Program-made: the position numbers and the translations under genes
The notes under the pieces: model-generated
What the model was told of the DNA's origin: nothing
The model's database searches: none
Seen by the model: only the letters and a program-made list of their open reading frames with translations
In this document: piece by piece, positions 3,356 to 61,199 of the stretch
Numbering within the stretch: the stretch's first letter is position 1
Layout: every line of letters begins with the position of its first letter
Origin: Gemmatimonadota bacterium
GTDB taxonomy: Bacteria; Gemmatimonadota; Gemmatimonadetes; Palauibacterales; Palauibacteraceae
Direction: 5' to 3'
Assembly (NCBI GenBank): GCA_023554245.1
Contig: JAMJQL010000092.1
Span: 1 to 64,000 of the forward strand
DNA: 64,000 nt

Positions 3356-5503
3356 ATGCCTGACTCGCCGGTCACTCGACAGCAGGTGCTCACTTATCTG
3401 ACCGATCACCCGAAGCGTCCTCTCACGGCGCGCGAGCTGGCGCGGGCTCTGGGCGTAGATTCCGAGAATTATCGCTCATTTCGAAGGCTCCTCCGGGAGA
3501 TGGAAGGCGACGCACTGCTGTTCCGGCAGCGGAAGGGCCGTTATGGGCTGCCGGCACAGTTTGAAGCGGCCAGCGGCAGGCTTCAGGTCACCCGCTCGGG
3601 GGACGGATTCGTCATTCCCGATGACGCCGGTTCCGAGGATGTCTTCGTGCCGGCCCGCGATCTGGAGACGGCGCAGGACGGAGACCGGGTCGTGGTCCGG
3701 ATCGATCGTCGGCCGCGCGGACGCAATCCGGAGGGGCGCATCGTCCGGGTTCTCGAGCGGGCGGTATCACAAGTGGTCGGGATCTATCACAGGCAGAAGG
3801 GCCAGGGTTACGTCGTCGCGCAGGAACCGCCACTGACGACGGATGTCCTGGTTCCGCAGGACCGCAGCGGCGGGGCCGAGGCCGGGCAGGTCGTCCTTGT
3901 GGAGATCGAGGACTGGGGTGCGCGAGGTCCGCGTCCCATTGGCCGGGTGACGCGGATTCTCGGCCGACCCGAGGAACCGGGCGTGGCGGTCCTCTCCATC
4001 CTGTTCGGGCATCAGCTTCCGCTGGAGTTTCCCGACCGCGTGGAGCGCGAGGCAGAGCGAATCGCGCGCCGTGGGATACGGCCGGAAGACCTCGACGGTC
4101 GGGAGGACTTCCGCGATCAACTCGTCTACACGATCGACCCGGCCGATGCACGTGACCACGATGATGCCGTGTCGGTCCGGGAACTCGACGACGGGACGCT
4201 CGAGGTCGGCGTCCACATCGCAGACGTGTCGTTCTACGTCAAGCGGGGCAGTGCCGTGGACCGCGAAGGAGCTGAGCGGGCGACCAGTGTGTACCTGGTA
4301 GATCGTGTCGTCCCTATGCTCCCCGAAGCGCTGTCGAACAGCATCTGTTCACTGGTTCCGGGTGAGGACCGCCTCGTCGTTTCGGTGCTGTTCCGGGTGG
4401 ATGGGGAAGGGCGGGTCGGACAAAGCAGGATCGTACGCGGTGTGATTCGGAGCGCCCACCGTCTCTCGTACGAGCAGGCGCAGTCGAGGCTGGATGGGGC
4501 TGCGGCGGGAAGGCTCGATCAGGATCCTCTGACCCGGAGTCTTCAGCAGCTGTCCCGCTTCGCCGGAAACCTGCGAGATGCCCGCTTCGAGGCCGGCGCC
4601 ATCGACTTCGCGATGCCCGAGGCGAAAGTCGAGCTGGACGAGCAGGGAGAGCCTGTCGCTATCGCGCCACGCGAGCGACTCGAGGCCCACAGGTTGATCG
4701 AGGATCTGATGATCCTCGCCAACGAGACCATCGCACGACTGGGGGAAGAGGAAGATCTCCCCATCCTGTTCCGGAATCACGAGCCGCCGTCCGAGGACCG
4801 TCTGGAGGGGCTCCGATCCCTCGCCCGCCTCCTCGGTCACCCGCTTCCCGAGGGCCAGATCCGCCCCCGCGACATCGCCGACCTCGTGGAATCGCAGAGT
4901 GGCACACGGCGCGAGTATCTGGTCTCCGTCGTCGCGCTCCGCAGCATGAAGCAGGCTCGATACTCGGGCGACAATCGCGGCCACTTCGGACTGGCGTCGG
5001 AGGCGTACTCCCACTTCACGTCACCGATCCGGCGGTATCCGGACCTTCATGTTCACCGGGTCGTGACGGGCTGGATCGAGGGACGTGCCGGACGGTCCCG
5101 GCTGACGAGGGATGATCTCGAGACGATCGCACGTCACTGTTCGGTCAGGGAGCGGAGAGCGGAGGCCGCGGAGCGGGAGTCGATCGAGCTGATGACGATC
5201 CGCTACATGGAGCGTCACCTCGGCGACGAATTCGAGGGAACGATCAGCGGGGTGACGGGGTTCGGGCTCTTCGTGATGATGGACGAAGTCCTCGCCGAGG
5301 GCCTCATCCGGGTCAGTTCGCTCGTCGATGACTATTATGTTTTCGACGCCGAGACGTTCACTCTTACGGGTCGAGGAAGTCGGCGGCGACTCCGGCTCGG
5401 GGACAGGGTCCGGGTTCAGGTCGTGCGGGTGGATCCGGAAAACCGTGAGATCGATCTCGATCTGCTGGACGGACCGCTTGACCCTGGTCGTGGCTCGGGC
5501 TAG
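3356..5503 (+). CDS. rnr: Ribonuclease R
   Basis: RNase R is a processive 3'-5' exoribonuclease that degrades structured RNA. The 715-residue protein has an N-terminal winged-helix segment (residues about 1-70), cold-shock-like OB domains, and the RNB catalytic domain. Around residue 260 the domain carries the acidic metal-binding motif DPADARDHDDAV, followed by EVGVHIADVSFYV. The HFTSPIRRYPDL motif is present, and an S1 RNA-binding domain (FEGTISGVTGFGLFVMMDE) lies near the C-terminus. An AGGAGGGG ribosome site supports the ATG. Length and domain order match the family. It sits between a barrel protein and prfB, the common pattern for a mixed housekeeping operon. Confidence 0.95.
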   Translation: MPDSPVTRQQVLTYLTDHPKRPLTARELARALGVDSENYRSFRRLLREMEGDALLFRQRKGRYGLPAQFEAASGRLQVTRSGDGFVIPDDAGSEDVFVPARDLETAQDGDRVVVRIDRRPRGRNPEGRIVRVLERAVSQVVGIYHRQKGQGYVVAQEPPLTTDVLVPQDRSGGAEAGQVVLVEIEDWGARGPRPIGRVTRILGRPEEPGVAVLSILFGHQLPLEFPDRVEREAERIARRGIRPEDLDGREDFRDQLVYTIDPADARDHDDAVSVRELDDGTLEVGVHIADVSFYVKRGSAVDREGAERATSVYLVDRVVPMLPEALSNSICSLVPGEDRLVVSVLFRVDGEGRVGQSRIVRGVIRSAHRLSYEQAQSRLDGAAAGRLDQDPLTRSLQQLSRFAGNLRDARFEAGAIDFAMPEAKVELDEQGEPVAIAPRERLEAHRLIEDLMILANETIARLGEEEDLPILFRNHEPPSEDRLEGLRSLARLLGHPLPEGQIRPRDIADLVESQSGTRREYLVSVVALRSMKQARYSGDNRGHFGLASEAYSHFTSPIRRYPDLHVHRVVTGWIEGRAGRSRLTRDDLETIARHCSVRERRAEAAERESIELMTIRYMERHLGDEFEGTISGVTGFGLFVMMDEVLAEGLIRVSSLVDDYYVFDAETFTLTGRGSRRRLRLGDRVRVQVVRVDPENREIDLDLLDGPLDPGRGSG

Positions 5504-14431: not shown

Positions 14432-16854
14432 AATCAGGCCGGTTTCTTCGGGTTGGAGTGACCCTCGCCACGTTGATGGCGGCGAGGGTCATCCCTTTGT
14501 GGGGGCAGGAGCAGACGCTCTACCAGGTACGGGTGGACAGCGTCGCCGTGTCCGGTGCATTCCGTTTCTCCGACGAGGGCGTGCGGCGAATCGCGGGCCT
14601 CCGGGAGGGAGAGGTCGTCAACGGCCCGGATGTTCAGGCCGCGATCCAGAGACTGTTCGCGACCGGTGAGTTCGAGGATGTGAGCATCCGCGTCACGGCA
14701 CGCGAGCCGAACATCTTCTATATCGACGTCTCCGAGCGTCCCCTCGTCGGCGACTTCGTATTCGACGGGCTCGATCACGTCAGCGAGAGCACGATCCGCG
14801 ATTCCGTCGGCCTCGTAGGCGGCACTGCGCTCGACCCCGCCCGGGTAGCTCAGGCCACGGTGCTGACCAGACAGCTGCTGGCCAACGCCGGTTTCCCGCA
14901 GGCCACGGTCGACACGAGCATGGTCGCGGATCCCTCCGGCCTGGACCAGGTCAACGTTGTGTTCGAGGTCAACGAAGGACCACGCCTGGCCCTTGCACGG
15001 GTCGAATTCACCGGCAACCGGGCATTCACCGATTCGCAGATTCGCGGGGCCATGAATACCTCTGAGGAGGGGTTCTTCTGGTTCAAACCCGGAGAACTGC
15101 ACCGGGATGAGTATCGTAGAGACCTGGCCGAGCGGATTCCGGAATTCTATGCCCGGTACGGCTACATCGACATGGAAGTTCTCGGCGATACGATTGTCGT
15201 CGACACCCTCACCGGGAAGGGCCGGATCGAGATTTCGGTCAACGAAGGACCGCAATACCTGATCCGTTCGTTCGAGATCGAAGGAAACCGGCGCTTTCCC
15301 TCTTCCCAGCTCGCAGAGTACTTCCCGGACGTGGTCGAAGGACTTCTCGGTGGGGCCCGGTCGCAAGAGGCACTTGACGAGATCAGACCACCGTTCGATC
15401 GCTCGGCTTTCGATGAGGCGAGCCAGAAGATCGCGGATCTCTACAGAGATGCCGGATATCTCTCTGTTAACATAGCTCCCGAGGTTCGCCGGCACCCGGT
15501 TGAAGAGGGCGAAGCGAATCCGACCGTGGAGACGCGCCTTCTCGTACAGGAAGGTCAGCCGGCCTACATCAGGACCGTCAGCATCGTGGGCAATGACTAC
15601 ACTCACGACGCAGTCATCCGAAAGGTCCTTCTCACCCTGCCCGGCGACGTTTACTCTCAGCAGCTCCTGGTGCAAAGCATCCGAAATCTTCAGTCGCTCG
15701 GGTTCTTCGAGACTTTGCCGCCGGACGAAGCGATCCAGATCAAGCCGCGCGACGACGGCGACATCGATCTCGTATATCGCGTCAAGGAGAAGCAGACCGG
15801 CAACGTCAACTTCGGGATCTCGGCCGCTGCAGCGACCGGTCTGGCAGGGTTCATAGGGTACGACCAGCCGAATCTTTTCGGTCAGGCAAAGGTCGGCCAT
15901 TTTCGCTGGTTGTTCGGACGGCGGTCGCAGGACATCGAGGTGAGCTACACGGACCCGGAGATCTTCGGGTCTCGAAACAGTCTCTCAGTGGGCGTTCAGA
16001 GCGCACGGGACCAGTTTCAGACTTTCAGCCTCGGGACGCGCCGTCAGACGGGTGGCTTCTTCGAGTTTGGAGTTCCGATATTCCGTCTCCGGTCCACCCG
16101 GTTCTATGCCGGATACTCGCTGTTCAACGACGAGGTCTCGGACCTGGACACCTTCGGGATCCCCGAGGGCCAGGAAGACCTCATCACCCAGGGCACCCGG
16201 AGCACGATCAGTCTGCGCCTGGTCCGGGACAATCGGGCAGGCGGTCTGTTCCCCGTTTCGGGGAGTCGAAACTCGATCTCGGCGCGCTTCACGGGAGGAA
16301 TCCTGGGCGGGGACGGGAACTACAATCGGTGGGACCTGACGAGCGAGTGGTTCGCACCGGTCGGACAGATCGGTGGCAGCGGGGGAGGGGTGCCCATCGA
16401 GCTCGTCCTCGGCCTCGCCTTCCGTGGTGGCCTCGTGTTCGGCGACAACCCGTTCTTCGTCGAGCGTTACTACGTCGGGGGCACGCAGGTTGGACAGCAG
16501 GTGCGCGGGTACGAGGAGGCGACGATCACCCCTCAGGGCCATGTGCCGCGCTCGGCTCCGATCAGCAGTCTTGACCGTGTCGGAGAAGCATACTTCACGA
16601 CTACCGCCCAGTTCGGGGTCAAGCTGACGGACAACATATTCGGCAGCGCCTTCGTCGATGGGGGCAACGTCTGGAAGAACGCGGGGGAGTTCAATCCCAC
16701 GGACCTTCTGCTGGGAGCGGGGTTAGGAGTTTCCCTCGTCACCCCGTTTGGACCGATCGGAATCGATTATGCCTACGGATTCGATCGACGCGATGTTCTG
16801 GGACGAGCCGATCCGGGCTGGCAGCTCCACTTCAGATTCGGCCGGCTGTTCTGA
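14428..16854 (+). CDS. bamA: Outer-membrane protein assembly factor BamA
   Basis: BamA is the Omp85 barrel that inserts beta-barrel proteins into the outer membrane. The 808-residue precursor has a signal peptide (residues 1-27), a series of POTRA repeats (about 30-420, each with a VNEGP-type turn such as [17 protein letters not shown]), and a C-terminal 16-strand barrel. The barrel holds the [11 protein letters not shown] loop, equivalent to the VRGF lid motif, and ends LHFRFGRLF with the terminal Phe of the beta-signal. The GTG start overlaps the clpC stop by 4 bases. It opens the envelope series bamA-skp-lpxD, the same order as in many Proteobacteria. Confidence 0.95.
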
Positions 16855-42563: not shown

Positions 42564-43415
42564 ATGGCAAAGTCGATGGCCACGAAGGCCAAGAAGGAAC
42601 CGGTCAACACCGAGGATCGTGTCGTCGAGAGCGTCGTCACCGCGGCGGACTGGGCGGACCGGAATCGCCGGGTGGTCACACTGGGTACCGTTGCGCTGAT
42701 CGCGCTCCTGTTTGCCGGTTGGGCATATCTCGACTACCGGAGCAAGATCTCCGAGCGTGCGGCAGTGCGGCTGGACGAGATACGAATGACCTCCGCGTCG
42801 GGCGCTCCGCCCGAGCAGGTCAGGGCTGAGCTCGCCGAGTACATCGGCCAGTTCGGCGGAACGCCGTTCGGTAACGAAGCGCGCCTCTACATGGCCCAGA
42901 TGGATCTGAGAGCAAACGACTTCGATTCCGCGATCCGGAATCTGGAGCCAGCAGCCGACCTCGCCATGGGAACCCCTGTGGCATTTCGGGCCGCCGAGGC
43001 GATCGCCGCTGCCCACGAGATGGCGGGGCGCCCGGAGGAGGCGATCCGGTGGCACGAGCGGATCGCGAGGGAGGCCGTGTTCGGCTTTCAGCGCGAGGAC
43101 GCTATTGGCGAGCAGGCCAGAATTCATGCCCGGATCGGCGACCTCCAGCGTGCGGAGTCACTCTACCGTCAGCTGCTCGCGGATGAGGAGCCTCAGGCCG
43201 AGGACCAGGCATCGATCTGGGCGGTCCGGGTGGGCGAGGTTGAAGCGTTACAGGCGGCGGGCGGAAGTGTCCCGCCGGTTCCGGAGATGCGGACCTTCGA
43301 CCCGGAGGCGCTTACCGCACCTTCCACGGGCCGTCCGAGCACGGAGTCGTTCGACGCGGCGCCGTCGGAGTCCGGGGACGAGGCCGGGAATCCGGAGACG
43401 GACTCGGGAGAGTAG
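42564..43415 (+). CDS. Membrane-anchored TPR protein, YfgM-like
   Basis: The 283-residue protein has a short Lys-rich cytoplasmic N-terminus, one membrane helix (VVTLGTVALIALLFAGWAYL, residues about 37-56) and TPR-like helices in the periplasmic part. Examples are GNEARLYMAQMDLRANDFDSAIRNLE and AIGEQARIHARIGDLQRAESLYRQLL. It ends with an acidic, Ser/Pro-rich tail that is likely unstructured. The topology and the YIGQFGGTPFGNEARL segment recall YfgM, an ancillary factor of the Sec/BamB region, but the tail is unlike it. It is the last gene before the dif site. Confidence 0.75.
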   Translation: MAKSMATKAKKEPVNTEDRVVESVVTAADWADRNRRVVTLGTVALIALLFAGWAYLDYRSKISERAAVRLDEIRMTSASGAPPEQVRAELAEYIGQFGGTPFGNEARLYMAQMDLRANDFDSAIRNLEPAADLAMGTPVAFRAAEAIAAAHEMAGRPEEAIRWHERIAREAVFGFQREDAIGEQARIHARIGDLQRAESLYRQLLADEEPQAEDQASIWAVRVGEVEALQAAGGSVPPVPEMRTFDPEALTAPSTGRPSTESFDAAPSESGDEAGNPETDSGE

Positions 43416-43496
43416 TCCGGCGCGATCCGTCCTCCGGTCGAGGGCCTTTTTCCGGTCCATCCCGGCACCCGGCTCCTGTCGACCGGCGTCAGCCTA

Positions 43497-43524
43497 ACGG
43501 CGCATAATGTATATTATGTTAACT
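43497..43524 (+). other. dif: dif site (XerC/XerD chromosome-dimer resolution)
   Basis: A 28-base site matches the E. coli dif at 24 of 28 positions. The left arm (XerC side) is ACGGCGCATAA at 43497-43507. The central hexamer TGTATA at 43508-43513 is identical to the E. coli one. The right arm (XerD side) is TTATGTTAACT at 43514-43524, with one difference. The four differences are the first three bases of the left arm and the tenth base of the right arm. It is the one strikingly AT-rich spot in a GC-rich region and lies in the only convergent intergenic gap, exactly where gene direction flips. The 171-base gap (43416-43586) holds nothing else clear: no good terminator was found on either side. 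Confidence 0.93.
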
Positions 43525-43586: not shown

Positions 43587-44351
43587 CTAAAGTCGGCCGG
43601 TAAGACCCTTCATTCTCAGCGCCCATACCCGCCATACGGCCTCCCGCACGATAGCGCCCGACATCTTGCTCTCTCCCTCGGCCCGATCGGTGAACACGAT
43701 CGGAATTTCCTTGAGCCGGAATCCCTGCTTCCAGGCTCGATAGTCCATCTCGATCTGGAATGTGTATCCGGTGCTGCCCACGCGGTCGAAGTCGATCGCT
43801 TCCAGCACTTCCCGTCGGAAACACTTGAATCCGCTGGTCGCGTCCTTCAGCGGAAGGCCCGTGATCCAGTGCGCGTACTTGTTGGCGAACCACGACAGGA
43901 GCAGGCGACTCATCGGCCAGTTGATCACGTTGACCCCCCGGACGTAGCGGGATCCGATCACCAGATCGGCCTCTCCGGAGGCCGCATCCAGCATCTCCGG
44001 CAGATACTTCGGATCGTGCGAGTAGTCGGCATCCATCTCTATCAGCCACTCGTATCCCTGCTCCAGCCCGATTCCGAAGCCGGTCAGATAAGCCGATCCC
44101 AGGCCCTGCTTTCCCTCACGGTGCAGGACTCGCACGCGCGGTTCGGTCGATGCGATGCGATCGGCGATCGCCCCCGTACCATCGGGAGACGCATCGTCGA
44201 CGATCAGGATGTCGATCCGCGGGTCGGCCTCGAGAATCAGCGGTACGATTCCCTCGAGGTTCCGGGCCTCTTCGTACGTGGGAAGCACGACGAGCGCTCG
44301 TCCACGTCCTCGATCCCCGGCGGTCCGGTCCGTCGATGCTCCTGAACTCAC
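43587..44351 (-). CDS. GT2 polyprenyl-phosphate-mannose synthase-like glycosyltransferase
   Basis: The 254-residue protein resembles dolichol/polyprenol-phosphate-mannose synthase without membrane helices. It has VVLPTYEEARNLEGIV, LIVDDASPDGTGAIAD, the nucleotide-sugar/metal motif EMDADYSHDP, GSRYVRGVN, and KDATSGFKCFRREVLEAID near the end. Such enzymes make polyprenyl-phosphate-hexose, the donor for GT-C transferases on the far side of the membrane. It is the last gene of the leftward series before dif, and its ATG overlaps the UPF0104 gene stop by 4 bases. The exact sugar is not settled by sequence. Confidence 0.86.
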   Translation of the reverse strand: MSSGASTDRTAGDRGRGRALVVLPTYEEARNLEGIVPLILEADPRIDILIVDDASPDGTGAIADRIASTEPRVRVLHREGKQGLGSAYLTGFGIGLEQGYEWLIEMDADYSHDPKYLPEMLDAASGEADLVIGSRYVRGVNVINWPMSRLLLSWFANKYAHWITGLPLKDATSGFKCFRREVLEAIDFDRVGSTGYTFQIEMDYRAWKQGFRLKEIPIVFTDRAEGESKMSGAIVREAVWRVWALRMKGLTGRL

Positions 44352-45325
44352 CCCTCACCTCGTTCCTGCCGGACTGTACCCGCGAGTCCCGCCGCCAGTA
44401 ACTCCGTCGCCACCGCCCACAGCCGCGCGAGTACCGCGACTGCCGCTCCGACGGAGAGAGGCACGCCGGCAACAGCGGCCAGCAATCCGGCCATCGTTCC
44501 TTCTCTCACCACCAGTCCTCCGGGCGCGATGAGGACGAGATATCCGGCGACGTAGGAGGCTGAGAACACTCCCGCCATCGTCAGAAAGCCGGGTTCGGTG
44601 CTGCCCCCCGCCCCTCTCCAGACACACCAGAGGCCGAGACCGTTCACCATCCACGCCACGATCAGGCCGAGGGCAGCCAGCACGGCCGAGCCGGCTCCCG
44701 GTGGCTGCGCCGGCGGCGTCTCTCCGAAGCGCTTTGCCAGCGCACCCGTCAGACGGCCCGTCAGTGAGGGTCGCACCAGCAGGACCACGAGCAGCAGAAG
44801 GATGACCGCGATCGGAACGGTCGCTCCCCCCGCCAGAAATTCGGCGCCCAGCACGGCCGCGGCGACGGCGACCCCCGTCCCGAGGACGAGCACCTGAAAC
44901 AGACCGGCTGCCGTCAACGCTGACGCGCCTGCCCTCCGGCGGTCCCGCATGTAGAACGCGAGGCCCGACAGCTGCCAGAGCTTGCCCGGAATGTAGCGGC
45001 CGAGATTGGTCACCATCCACACCCGAACCCCCTCCGACGTTCCGATCCTGCCTCCCAGTGCCCGAAACAGCCCTACCCAGATCGCGCCCATGAGAAACAG
45101 GTTTGCGGTGCCGATCACGAGAGCCGCAATGAGCCAGCCGGGGCGAAGAGTCCAGCCGAAGTCGCGCAGGTCGGAGCGCAATCCCGACACCTCTCCACCC
45201 TGGCGCACGAGAAGGAAGAGCGCAAACACGAGCGACAGGGCCACGAACGTCCAGCCGATCGCCCGTTTTCGCTTCTCGTGGACGGGCAGTGCCCTTCCGG
45301 GATCGGAATTCTCGCCCCCCCGCAC
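44348..45325 (-). CDS. UPF0104 / lysylphosphatidylglycerol-synthase-type transmembrane protein
   Basis: The 325-residue protein has about eight membrane helices and the UPF0104 features FRALGGRIGTSEGVRVWMVTNLGRYIPGKLWQL and YLVLIAPGGLVVREGTMAGLLA. The family includes proposed lipid or polyprenyl-phosphate-sugar flippases and the flippase half of MprF. The start is GTG 45325, 5 bases after the YfhO gene stop, with AGAGGG about 10 bases upstream. The frame upstream of it is a shadow of the YfhO gene. Position between a polyprenyl-phosphate-sugar synthase and a YfhO gene suggests that it moves the sugar donor across the membrane. Confidence 0.8.
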   Translation of the reverse strand: MRGGENSDPGRALPVHEKRKRAIGWTFVALSLVFALFLLVRQGGEVSGLRSDLRDFGWTLRPGWLIAALVIGTANLFLMGAIWVGLFRALGGRIGTSEGVRVWMVTNLGRYIPGKLWQLSGLAFYMRDRRRAGASALTAAGLFQVLVLGTGVAVAAAVLGAEFLAGGATVPIAVILLLLVVLLVRPSLTGRLTGALAKRFGETPPAQPPGAGSAVLAALGLIVAWMVNGLGLWCVWRGAGGSTEPGFLTMAGVFSASYVAGYLVLIAPGGLVVREGTMAGLLAAVAGVPLSVGAAVAVLARLWAVATELLAAGLAGTVRQERGEG

Positions 45326-57526: not shown

Positions 57527-59020
57527 TCAGAGGTCTCCCGGAAACCTCAAAATCGCATACAGCCGCGAGGTCGGATCTGATCCGCCCGGGTCGACGGCGA
57601 CACCTGCCTCGAAGACCGACCAGCGAAGTCCCGCAATGAGGTTGGATTCGAAATCCTCCGAGTCGTCGGGCCCCCAGGCCGAGCCAGCCACGGCTCTGAG
57701 CAGAACTTTCGGCGGCCCGATCATCGCCACCCGAAGCGCCGAGATCGGAATCAGATACGAGGCCTGCCCGTAGACGAGTCGGGGTCCGCGGAAGGAGAGC
57801 AGGTCGAACGTGGGGAGCGTAGCGCGGCCGCCGAAGGCGCTCCACCGTTGCGCGGGAAGGTCTCCGCTCAGATCCCCCCGCACAATTCCGAAGAGCTCGA
57901 CCTCATGAGAGCCGAACCCCGGAGTGAGCCAGTAGAGCCTGGCTTCGCCGAATACGAAGCTGAAATCTCCTGCAATCGAAGAATCGGCGACCTCAGCCCG
58001 AACCGAAGCTTCGAACCGTCGGTCGGCCCCTCTCTGCTGCAAACCGAGGCCGGCGATCAGGCTGACCGTTTCACCTTCGTCCACGACTGGATTGAGAGCG
58101 GGCTCATCGTCCCCGAACAGCACGAACTGCTTCCTGGCCTCCTTGCTGCTCGCCTCCTCCCATTCGACAGAGAGCAAAGGCTGCAAGGAGGCGGTCTCGC
58201 TGCCACGCAGCACGATCGAGACTCGATCCGCCCCGTAGTAGTTGCGGAAGTCGTCTCCGACGAAGAAGTACGAGAGGGAATTGGAGATGTCACCGCGGAT
58301 CCAGTCCTCGTTCGTCCGGGTCACCCTCTCGGCTTCGAATCCGAATTGAAACGAACCGCTCGGATACCAGTACTGCTTGAGGGTTCCCTGGAATTCCCCC
58401 TGCTCCGTGATGAACCTGAGCTCTCCCTCCAGGCTGGGCTGCCAGGCCCATCCCGTGGCCCTGAGCGTCGCGCCCCAGCGCAGCGTAACCGCGTCCACTC
58501 GCTGGTAGTAGGGAAAGCCGAAACCGTACAGGCCGTGCAGATCTACGGCCTTCGGCTCCTCCCTGATCGGAAAAATCCGCCAACCCCCGTCTGTGCGGGC
58601 CACGCTGTACAGCTCATTCGGAAGGTAAATGACCTCGCCCGAGACTTCCGCCAGCTCCGACGCGTAGTAGCCGCCGCCGAGCACGACGACGTCTCCTTCG
58701 ACGCGCGCCCCGGGGCGCAGAAAGAGATCACCATCCACGACGAACACGTCACCCGGGACGGTAGTCGCCAGCCGAACGGCTGCATCCAGCACCAGGATGC
58801 TCCGGTCCGGTGACGCCGGGACTCGGAGTACGGTATCCGAAGTCAGTACGGCGTAGTCCGCACGCTCGAGGAACTCGTCGAGTCGCCTCTCGACCGGTCG
58901 ATCCGCTCGTGGCGTGAACTCCACTTCCTGGGCGTCGCCAGCGCGGGGGATGCACGCGAGAATCGCCAGAGACAGAATCCCTGCGACCGGAAGGGCCGGC
59001 CGCCTTCCATGCCCTCTCAC
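57527..59020 (-). CDS. Outer-membrane beta-barrel protein with N-terminal beta-helix domain, function unknown
   Basis: The 497-residue product has a signal peptide with cleavage after Ala30 (RAGDA/QEVEF). A domain of short repeated strands (about residues 70-135) contains GDVFVVDGDLFLRPGARVEG and DVVVLGGG, resembling bactofilin/hexapeptide beta-helix turns. The rest (about 165-497) alternates aromatic and polar residues as an outer-membrane barrel, for example FQGTLKQYWYPSGSFQFGFEAERV, and ends SRLYAILRFPGDL. No exact family was recognised. The GTG 59020 has GGGAGGAA upstream and overlaps the nitroreductase stop by 4 bases. A 118-base gap separates it from kdsB downstream; no clear terminator was found there. 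Confidence 0.75.
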   Translation of the reverse strand: MRGHGRRPALPVAGILSLAILACIPRAGDAQEVEFTPRADRPVERRLDEFLERADYAVLTSDTVLRVPASPDRSILVLDAAVRLATTVPGDVFVVDGDLFLRPGARVEGDVVVLGGGYYASELAEVSGEVIYLPNELYSVARTDGGWRIFPIREEPKAVDLHGLYGFGFPYYQRVDAVTLRWGATLRATGWAWQPSLEGELRFITEQGEFQGTLKQYWYPSGSFQFGFEAERVTRTNEDWIRGDISNSLSYFFVGDDFRNYYGADRVSIVLRGSETASLQPLLSVEWEEASSKEARKQFVLFGDDEPALNPVVDEGETVSLIAGLGLQQRGADRRFEASVRAEVADSSIAGDFSFVFGEARLYWLTPGFGSHEVELFGIVRGDLSGDLPAQRWSAFGGRATLPTFDLLSFRGPRLVYGQASYLIPISALRVAMIGPPKVLLRAVAGSAWGPDDSEDFESNLIAGLRWSVFEAGVAVDPGGSDPTSRLYAILRFPGDL

Positions 59021-59550
59021 CCGTGTTCCTCCCACGCGTCCCAGGACACCGTCTCGTGGACGGGACGACGATCGGGAAGACGCACGAAACCGTCCGGGTA
59101 TCCCACAGCCAGAAGTGTCACGACCGGAATGTCCTGAGGTATGCCGAGAATCGTACGCACCGATGTTTCGCGGAAACCCGTGATCCATGACGACTGCAGT
59201 CCGAGGTCGGCCGCGCAGAGAGACATGGCCTGGGCCGCCGCAGCCAGGTCGGTCGGGTGCGCGGGTCTTCCATTTCCGCTGACTCGCGAGTGAAGGCGGG
59301 CGCAGCCGACGATTACGACCGGAGCCGTCCGGGCCAGGCGGCTGTGAAAGGCCGCCTCCGCGAGTCGATGACGAATCAGCGGATCCCGCACGATGACGAA
59401 TCTCCAGGGCTGATCCTCTCCCGCCGACGTCGAGTAGCGGCCGCAGTCCAGGATCCGATCCAGCAGTTCTTGCGGTACCGGACGATCGGCGAACCGCTTC
59501 ACGGGTTTCCGATTCCGAGAGAGATTGTAGACTCGGGAGAGGTGGCTCAC
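59017..59550 (-). CDS. Nitroreductase-family FMN oxidoreductase
   Basis: The 177-residue protein has the family N-terminus with RNRKPVKRFADRPVPQELLDRIL, where Arg/Lys residues contact the FMN phosphate. It also has GEDQPWRFVIVRD and AAAQAMSLCAADLGLQSSWITGF, and a C-terminal GYPDGFVRLPDRRP segment. It is short but complete and would act as a dimer. The substrate (quinone, nitro or flavin compound) cannot be told. The GTG start lies 7 bases after xerD. Confidence 0.86.
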   Translation of the reverse strand: MSHLSRVYNLSRNRKPVKRFADRPVPQELLDRILDCGRYSTSAGEDQPWRFVIVRDPLIRHRLAEAAFHSRLARTAPVVIVGCARLHSRVSGNGRPAHPTDLAAAAQAMSLCAADLGLQSSWITGFRETSVRTILGIPQDIPVVTLLAVGYPDGFVRLPDRRPVHETVSWDAWEEHG

Positions 59551-59556
59551 GCTCGC

Positions 59557-60573
59557 TCATGCTCTCGGGTGATAGCGCCTGTGCTCCGCCTGCAGGTAAC
59601 TCCGGTCCACATGCGTATAAATCTGGGTCGTCGAGATGTCCGCATGTCCGAGCATCTCCTGTACCGCGACCAGGTCGGCTCCGCCGTCCAGCAGGTGGGT
59701 TGCGAAGCTGTGGCGGAAAGTATGAGGCGTCACACTCCCCATGATCGGAAAGCCCCCTCTCTCCGCCTCGGGTCTGGCGCGCTCGACGGCCTCTTTGACG
59801 ATCTTCCAGGCCCCTGTGCGACTGATCGGCGTCCCTCGCTGGTTCAGGAACAGCGCGCCACTCGACTTTTCGGGGCGCTCCAGCAACTCCCGTCCGTCCT
59901 CAAGGTACCGGAGCAGCGCACGCCTCGCACCACCGCCCACGGGCACGATCCGCTCCTTGTCTCCCTTGCCCCGAATGATCGCGAATCCCGACTCGATCTC
60001 TATGTCACGGACGGCCAGACCGATCAGTTCCGAGATGCGAAGTCCCGAGCCGTAGAGGAATTCGAGCATGCAGGCATCTCTGAGTGTTGCCGCTTTCGCG
60101 CGGGCCGTGAGGCCGCCGGCTCCACTGGCGATCTCCGCCCGTTTCCGCGCTGTGTCGAGTATGCACAGCACCTGATTGACGCTGAGCACGTCGGGCAGTC
60201 GAGATCTCCGGCCGGGAGACTCCAGCCGTTCGGTCGGATCTTCCGAGAGGTATCCCTCTTCGAGCAGGAATGCGAAGTACGTGCGGAGTGCGGACCGGGC
60301 CCGAGATGCAGTGCCAGGCGCGAGCCCCCGGATTGAGAGCTCCGCCATCCACGACCGGAGCAGTCCGTAGTCGACGGCGGATGGGTTTCGGGCGTCGTTC
60401 TCGAGGGCGAAGTCTGCGAATCCCCGGCAGTCGTGGAGATACGCCGCAACCGTACGATCGGAGAGATTCCGTTCGAAACGGAGGTATTCTTCGAACAGCT
60501 CGACCCGGAATGCGTGGTCCCGGTCGGGGTTCTTCCCGACCGCCACCGTGACGTCCTTCCAGCCCCGAGTCAT
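59557..60573 (-). CDS. xerD: Site-specific tyrosine recombinase XerD
   Basis: XerD, with XerC, resolves chromosome dimers at dif under FtsK control. The 338-residue protein has the N-terminal SAM-like core-binding domain (FEEYLRFERNLSDRTVAAYLHDCRGF) and a C-terminal catalytic domain with all active residues. These are Arg179 in GLRISELIGL, Lys203 in GKGDKERIVPV, His284 and Arg287 in HTFRHSFATHLLDGGADL, His310 in LGH, and Tyr319 in IYTHV. The length is 30-40 residues above the family norm because of an N-terminal extension and an insert near residue 150. XerC is not in the window. The ATG 60573 overlaps the dedA stop by 4 bases; the frame extends upstream as a shadow of dedA. Confidence 0.94.
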   Translation of the reverse strand: MTRGWKDVTVAVGKNPDRDHAFRVELFEEYLRFERNLSDRTVAAYLHDCRGFADFALENDARNPSAVDYGLLRSWMAELSIRGLAPGTASRARSALRTYFAFLLEEGYLSEDPTERLESPGRRSRLPDVLSVNQVLCILDTARKRAEIASGAGGLTARAKAATLRDACMLEFLYGSGLRISELIGLAVRDIEIESGFAIIRGKGDKERIVPVGGGARRALLRYLEDGRELLERPEKSSGALFLNQRGTPISRTGAWKIVKEAVERARPEAERGGFPIMGSVTPHTFRHSFATHLLDGGADLVAVQEMLGHADISTTQIYTHVDRSYLQAEHRRYHPRA

Positions 60574-61199
60574 TCGCCCGGATCTTCGGGGTGCCGACTG
60601 CGCCACCACAGCAGCAGGAGCAGGAGGGTCGCGAGTCCTGCGACCAGCCCCGCCGTGGTGTTCACGGCGCGCAGGGATCCGATGAGTTTCTCGATGTTCC
60701 GCGAGAAGATCACCCCGGCCGTGACGAGTGCCCCGTACCACGCTGCTGAGGCCAGAGACAGTGGAACCGCGGTGCGCCAGAATCCCAGCTTGCTGATCCC
60801 GGCGAATGCCGGGACCAGAACGCGGAACACCGGGAAGAACCGACTGACGAGTATCGTCAAGGTTCCGTATTCCCGGTAGAAAACAGACATGCGATGCAAT
60901 TGCTCCGGACGGAGCAGCCAGCGACCCCACCGGGTCCCGAAGATTCCGCCCCCGTAGCGCCTCGCCGCCCCGTACACCATGAGTGCGAGAATCAGGTTAC
61001 TGACCCATGCTACGAGGAACACGATGCGACCGTCCAGCAGACCGCGGTCCGCGGCAACGGCTCCGGCCACCACGAACATATCCGACGGAATCGGCGGAAA
61101 CAGATTTTCGATCGCGGCGCCGGCGCCTACGAGCAGATAGAGAACCTCCACGGGGAGACTCGAAACGAGCTCCAGGAGGCCATCGATCGACTCGTGCAC
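60570..61199 (-). CDS. DedA family membrane protein
   Basis: The 209-residue integral membrane protein has the DedA signatures ENLFPPIPSDMFVVAGAVAA, GGGIFGTRWGRWLLRPEQLHRMSVFYREYG, and SRFFPVFRVLVPAFAGIS with the conserved FxPxxR segment. Several membrane helices follow. DedA proteins are thought to flip polyprenyl phosphates or phospholipids. Sequence alone does not identify the cargo. The start is GTG 61199, six bases after the ispF stop. This may be redundant with the VTT gene at 41737-42405. Confidence 0.88.
   Translation of the reverse strand: MHESIDGLLELVSSLPVEVLYLLVGAGAAIENLFPPIPSDMFVVAGAVAADRGLLDGRIVFLVAWVSNLILALMVYGAARRYGGGIFGTRWGRWLLRPEQLHRMSVFYREYGTLTILVSRFFPVFRVLVPAFAGISKLGFWRTAVPLSLASAAWYGALVTAGVIFSRNIEKLIGSLRAVNTTAGLVAGLATLLLLLLWWRSRHPEDPGE

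Follow-up and report, generated by a model that had tools for sequence, protein, structure and literature searches.

In E. coli, chromosome dimers are turned into monomers by XerC and XerD acting at dif, to which KOPS guide FtsK. The initial annotation of a stretch of Gemmatimonadota DNA placed such a site at 43497-43524 and concluded that the stretch spans the replication terminus. The question raised by this locus is whether the 28-mer is the chromosomal dif of the bacterium and whether its two replichores meet there. The stretch analyzed (the window) comprises 64,000 nucleotides and covers bases 1-64000 of a contig of 70,533 bases, one of 197 in the assembly. The evidence set out below makes it almost certain that 43497-43524 is the chromosomal dif of this Gemmatimonadota bacterium and the place where its two replichores meet. 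The site is newly located here; as a kind of site, dif is a normal constituent of bacterial chromosomes.

The 28-mer at 43497-43524

The analysis of the site identified the following elements:

43497-43524, + strand: dif, full 28-mer ACGGCGCATAATGTATATTATGTTAACT, unique in the assembly
43497-43507: XerC-side arm, ACGGCGCATAA
43508-43513: central hexamer, TGTATA
43514-43524: XerD-side arm, TTATGTTAACT

The arrangement of two 11-bp arms around a 6-bp centre fits the dif consensus and thus membership of the XerCD type. Comparison with E. coli dif (GGTGCGCATAATGTATATTATGTTAAAT) gave 24 shared bases out of 28; mismatches are confined to bases 1-3 and 27, and both sites have the same central hexamer. 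The best other match to E. coli dif within the window, excepting the site's own near-palindrome on the opposite strand, had 17 of 28 bases. About 3e-6 matches of at least 24/28 would be expected by chance in both strands of 2.93 Mb with the base composition of this genome. The whole assembly (2.93 Mb, 92% complete, 197 contigs) was then searched with up to three mismatches allowed: 43497-43524 was the single match, and zero matches were obtained when the reversed pattern was used as a control. One occurrence in the assembly agrees with the single copy typical of an XerCD-type chromosomal dif. The G+C content of the site is 32%, against 64.5% in its neighbourhood.

These data bear out the first description of the site on every point. 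Its letters and coordinates were exact, as were its differences from E. coli dif (three bases of the left arm, one of the right, hexamer identical, hence 24/28) and its standing as an AT-rich exception in GC-rich surroundings. Equally good matches elsewhere, which were to count against it, were absent from the assembly at up to three mismatches.

Replication polarity around the site

The gap containing dif is flanked by a TPR protein gene and a glycosyltransferase gene. The features relevant to polarity are:

42564-43415, + strand: TPR protein gene (Pfam TPR_21), the last + strand gene before dif
43415-43444: GC-skew reversal point (cumulative maximum at 43415, best single change point at 43444)
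43429-43445, + strand: terminator-like hairpin followed by a T tail, in the interval from the TPR gene to dif (called from a consensus match only)
43587-44351, - strand: dolichol-phosphate-mannose-synthase-like family 2 glycosyltransferase (Pfam PF00535; PDB 5mlz match, E 7.6e-32)
Left of dif, + strand: ABC transporter, GFO/IDH oxidoreductase, DUF374, LpxK, FAD enzyme, UvrC, PLP enzyme, DUF512, Der, PlsY, GpsA, MerR, SurE, PCMT, TPR
Right of dif, - strand: GT2, LPG-synthase-like, YfhO-like, methyltransferase, GT4, GT2, RpoN, ABC, LptA/D-like, CTP synthase, cytidylyltransferase, XerD, IspF, FabF, FabG, acyltransferase
Starts at 4404, 15214, 16382, 27927, 29681, 33788, 38491 and 38652, + strand: eight forward KOPS (GGGNAGGG)
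Start at 15635: the single reverse KOPS left of dif
Starts at 45071, 46069, 52863, 56556, 57138 and 62658, - strand: six reverse KOPS within the window
Contig position 67580, beyond the window: a seventh reverse KOPS

All genes with a Pfam match are on the + strand to the left of dif and on the - strand to the right of it, so that transcription is polarized toward the site. Strands were assigned from Pfam matches only, genes with no such match being left out, because gene calling by GC3 could not tell sense frames from antisense ones. Neither the Rfam scan nor the tRNA scan of the window gave a match. The closest protein relatives of the gene adjoining dif are in named Gemmatimonadota genomes.

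Over the entire 70,533-base contig the GC skew is +0.041 to the left of dif and -0.078 to the right. The change point at 43444 is 53 bp from dif and the skew extreme 53-82 bp from it. Forward and reverse KOPS number 8 and 1 to the left of dif and 0 and 7 to the right, and 15 of the 16 in the contig therefore point at the site. Gene orientation, KOPS and skew are in part correlated with one another and should not be counted as three fully independent proofs.

Relatives allowed the comparison to be extended to whole chromosomes. In a closed genome of the same class (G019) the sampled skew was positive at nine of ten points before dif and negative at nine of ten after it, with forward/reverse KOPS of 21/4 before and 6/17 after. 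For G039 the corresponding KOPS counts were 27/8 and 7/20, and its sampled skew was weaker. The terminus-side skew shift of an XerCD-type dif is thus seen within 70.5 kb in the contig itself and at the scale of the chromosome in relatives. The shorter arc from dnaA to dif takes up 42-49% of the chromosome in five closed genomes (G017, G019, G039, G058 and G165); oriC of the present genome may lie opposite dif. In three other closed genomes (G125/CP070670, G157 and G075) the distance is only 15-19%; either dnaA is no marker of oriC there, or the chromosomes or their assemblies are rearranged. The sampled skew of G125 was irregular.

The position of dnaA in these three relatives could also be read as a sign that dif is real and serves dimer resolution, while replication usually ends elsewhere. 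On the strength of skew, Kono et al. (2011, PMC3025954) place termination in the vicinity of dif rather than at dif itself, in line with such a reading. We nevertheless consider it unlikely, as the skew changes 53 bp from dif in this contig, G019 shows a switch of both skew and KOPS at dif, and G039 shows one of KOPS. It also overlaps with the reading of 43497-43524 as dif and replichore junction, from which it differs in the use of the word "terminus" only.

The claims of the initial annotation about the surroundings also stand. The site does lie in the only convergent gap, in so far as every gene with a Pfam match is concerned. A skew extreme far from 43.5 kb, named as an outcome that would speak against the site, was not found, the extreme being 53-82 bp from dif. 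That the window spans the terminus is supported by the skew reversal, KOPS and gene polarity, and by the position of the class-mate's orthologous site at a reversal of skew and KOPS. The terminus of an uncultured Gemmatimonadota genome would in this way be fixed to within tens of bases.

Recombinases, FtsK and the conserved neighbourhood

The only recombinase gene inside the window is the following:

59557-60930, - strand: open frame of xerD, 16 kb from dif, with R, H-x-x-R, H and Y motifs visible

Its product scored 303.7 bits with the XerD model TIGR02225 against 277.3 with the XerC model TIGR02224, and its best PDB match was E. coli XerD (1a0p). The Xer domain does not begin until about residue 141, which puts the probable true start of xerD near 60576. 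Directly downstream of it, a 677-residue open frame (57527-59560, - strand) had neither a Pfam nor an NCBIfam match. A gene for XerC was found on contig C104 (TIGR02224, 313.5 against 276.7 bits), immediately preceded by an open frame read from its sequence as a putative trmFO. Both proteins score under the curated equivalog cut-offs, so the names XerC and XerD rest on the better-scoring model in each case. The FtsK of this genome has alpha, motor and gamma domains (gamma PF09397, 88.2 bits). Both Xer recombinases are thus encoded, and an FtsK gamma domain occurs together with KOPS, as is characteristic of an XerCD-type dif. A single-recombinase system of the XerS/difSL or XerH/difH type was considered and rejected: full-length Xer genes number two in this genome, and the same holds for nearly all the phylum genomes sampled.

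Both the components and their layout are present: the site and its uniqueness in the assembly, the reversal of skew and KOPS, the polarity of the flanking genes, the conservation of the site across the phylum, and genes encoding XerC, XerD and an FtsK with a gamma domain. By analogy with E. coli, septal FtsK would load on KOPS octamers and move along both arms of the chromosome toward dif, where its gamma domain would activate XerD, bound to the TTATGTTAACT arm, to exchange the first pair of strands. The second exchange would be completed by XerC on the ACGGCGCATAA arm, and a chromosome dimer would be cut into two monomers before division. Recombination would thus be expected at 43497-43524.

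An E. coli-like core pattern found dif in 76 of 298 genomes of the phylum, with one match each; this is a lower bound, because the pattern misses dif in most of one family (f4). A looser pattern (CGYATAA N6 TTATGTNAA) located dif in members of f4 as well, and in G010, G019 and G039 it placed dif near the glycosyltransferase gene or xerD. In G089 and G183 no good dif site was present in the stretch examined around the glycosyltransferase gene. Alignment of 52 distinct sites from the phylum showed conservation over just 28-29 columns (columns 1-29), with background on both sides. Among the columns left free by the search pattern (1-4, 12-17, 24 and 26-30) conservation was general, the exceptions being column 2 and, weakly, column 30.

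The conservation extends beyond the site itself. The block of dif, the dolichol-phosphate-mannose-synthase-like glycosyltransferase gene and xerD has kept its order and orientation across Gemmatimonadota families. Among the matches listed, the glycosyltransferase gene follows the XerD arm of dif at a distance of 89 bp to 10 kb, on the opposite strand, in all 28 genomes with both on the same contig. On the same basis xerD follows that arm at 16-30 kb, always in one orientation, in 12 of 14 genomes; the exceptions in distance are G125 (338 kb) and G075 (1.05 Mb). The glycosyltransferase gene and xerD are 15-43 kb apart and in one order in 37 of the 42 genomes with matches listed. All these counts are samples, since only best matches are listed, and pairs on separate contigs are uninformative. 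The 52-site profile, together with the glycosyltransferase gene as a marker, lets dif and the terminus be located in draft genomes of the phylum.

The persistence of xerD close to dif across much of the phylum is a mild surprise and the part of these results that a specialist might not expect. A limited literature search found no report of such linkage, which is not proof of absence. In this two-recombinase system selection may hold xerD, or the block as a whole, close to the terminus, and we regard this as rather doubtful: the linkage is observed and selection is the speculative part, plain inheritance of gene order being enough to explain the block. The block could be of use in testing if proximity of a recombinase gene to its target is maintained, and for what reason.

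About ten Actinomycetota were also observed to have a homologous glycosyltransferase gene immediately adjoining a dif-like site, several of these genomes being named as freshwater lineages such as Nanopelagicus (loci L104, L105, L107, L108, L111, L114, L115, L116 and L117; at L095 it is ~440 bp away). In most of these the stop codon of the glycosyltransferase gene falls inside the dif-like site, and the relative orientation of the two is opposite to that in Gemmatimonadota. The glycosyltransferase gene as a companion of dif across phyla was rejected on account of this orientation and because none of 29 further actinobacterial loci in which a dif was matched has it.

Two dif-like sites were present in the closed 4.09 Mb genome of G157, at 777056-777077 (- strand) and 3732205-3732226 (+ strand). 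A terminus-type skew reversal, from plus to minus, was seen only at 3732205-3732226; the sign change at 777056-777077 is the opposite one. The extra site is possibly a mobile element or an assembly error.

Xer-using mobile elements (IMEX, phages, pdif modules) exist in other bacteria and, with the second site of G157 in mind, the 28-mer of the window could be the attachment or module site of such an element rather than a native dif. This is very improbable: there is one site only in the assembly, its neighbours are housekeeping genes, the one recombinase gene of the window is that of XerD, the same neighbourhood is kept across families, and skew and KOPS reverse exactly at the site. That the 28-mer, being nearly palindromic and situated in a convergent gap, is a chance match or a transcription terminator can be virtually dismissed, given the ~3e-6 matches expected by chance, the separate terminator-like hairpin at 43429-43445, and the retention of the same columns where the neighbouring gene is up to 10 kb off.

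Comparison with known systems

The locus resembles the dif/XerC/XerD/FtsK system of E. coli in 24 of 28 bases and the hexamer, in having two recombinases and an FtsK gamma domain, in the direction of KOPS toward the site and in the skew reversal there. It differs from E. coli dif in the first three bases and one base of the right arm, and here xerD is 16 kb from dif.

Earlier predictions of dif cover 14 phyla, in a table of single-chromosome genomes that includes one Gemmatimonadetes genome (Kono et al. 2011, PMC3025954). That site and ours agree in phylum and in kind; theirs was obtained with Proteobacteria and Chlorobi profiles. One genome was covered there, whereas the sites described here number in the tens and come with a profile for the phylum and with conserved neighbours. 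In their set it is mostly xerC that lies near dif, xerD being close to the origin (PMC3025954), a trend from which the Gemmatimonadota, with xerD near dif, differ.

A recombinase gene genetically linked to dif is also a feature of XerS/difSL in streptococci and of XerH/difH in epsilonproteobacteria, including Helicobacter. Those systems employ a single recombinase, unlike the one described here, in which there are two and 16-30 kb separate xerD from dif.
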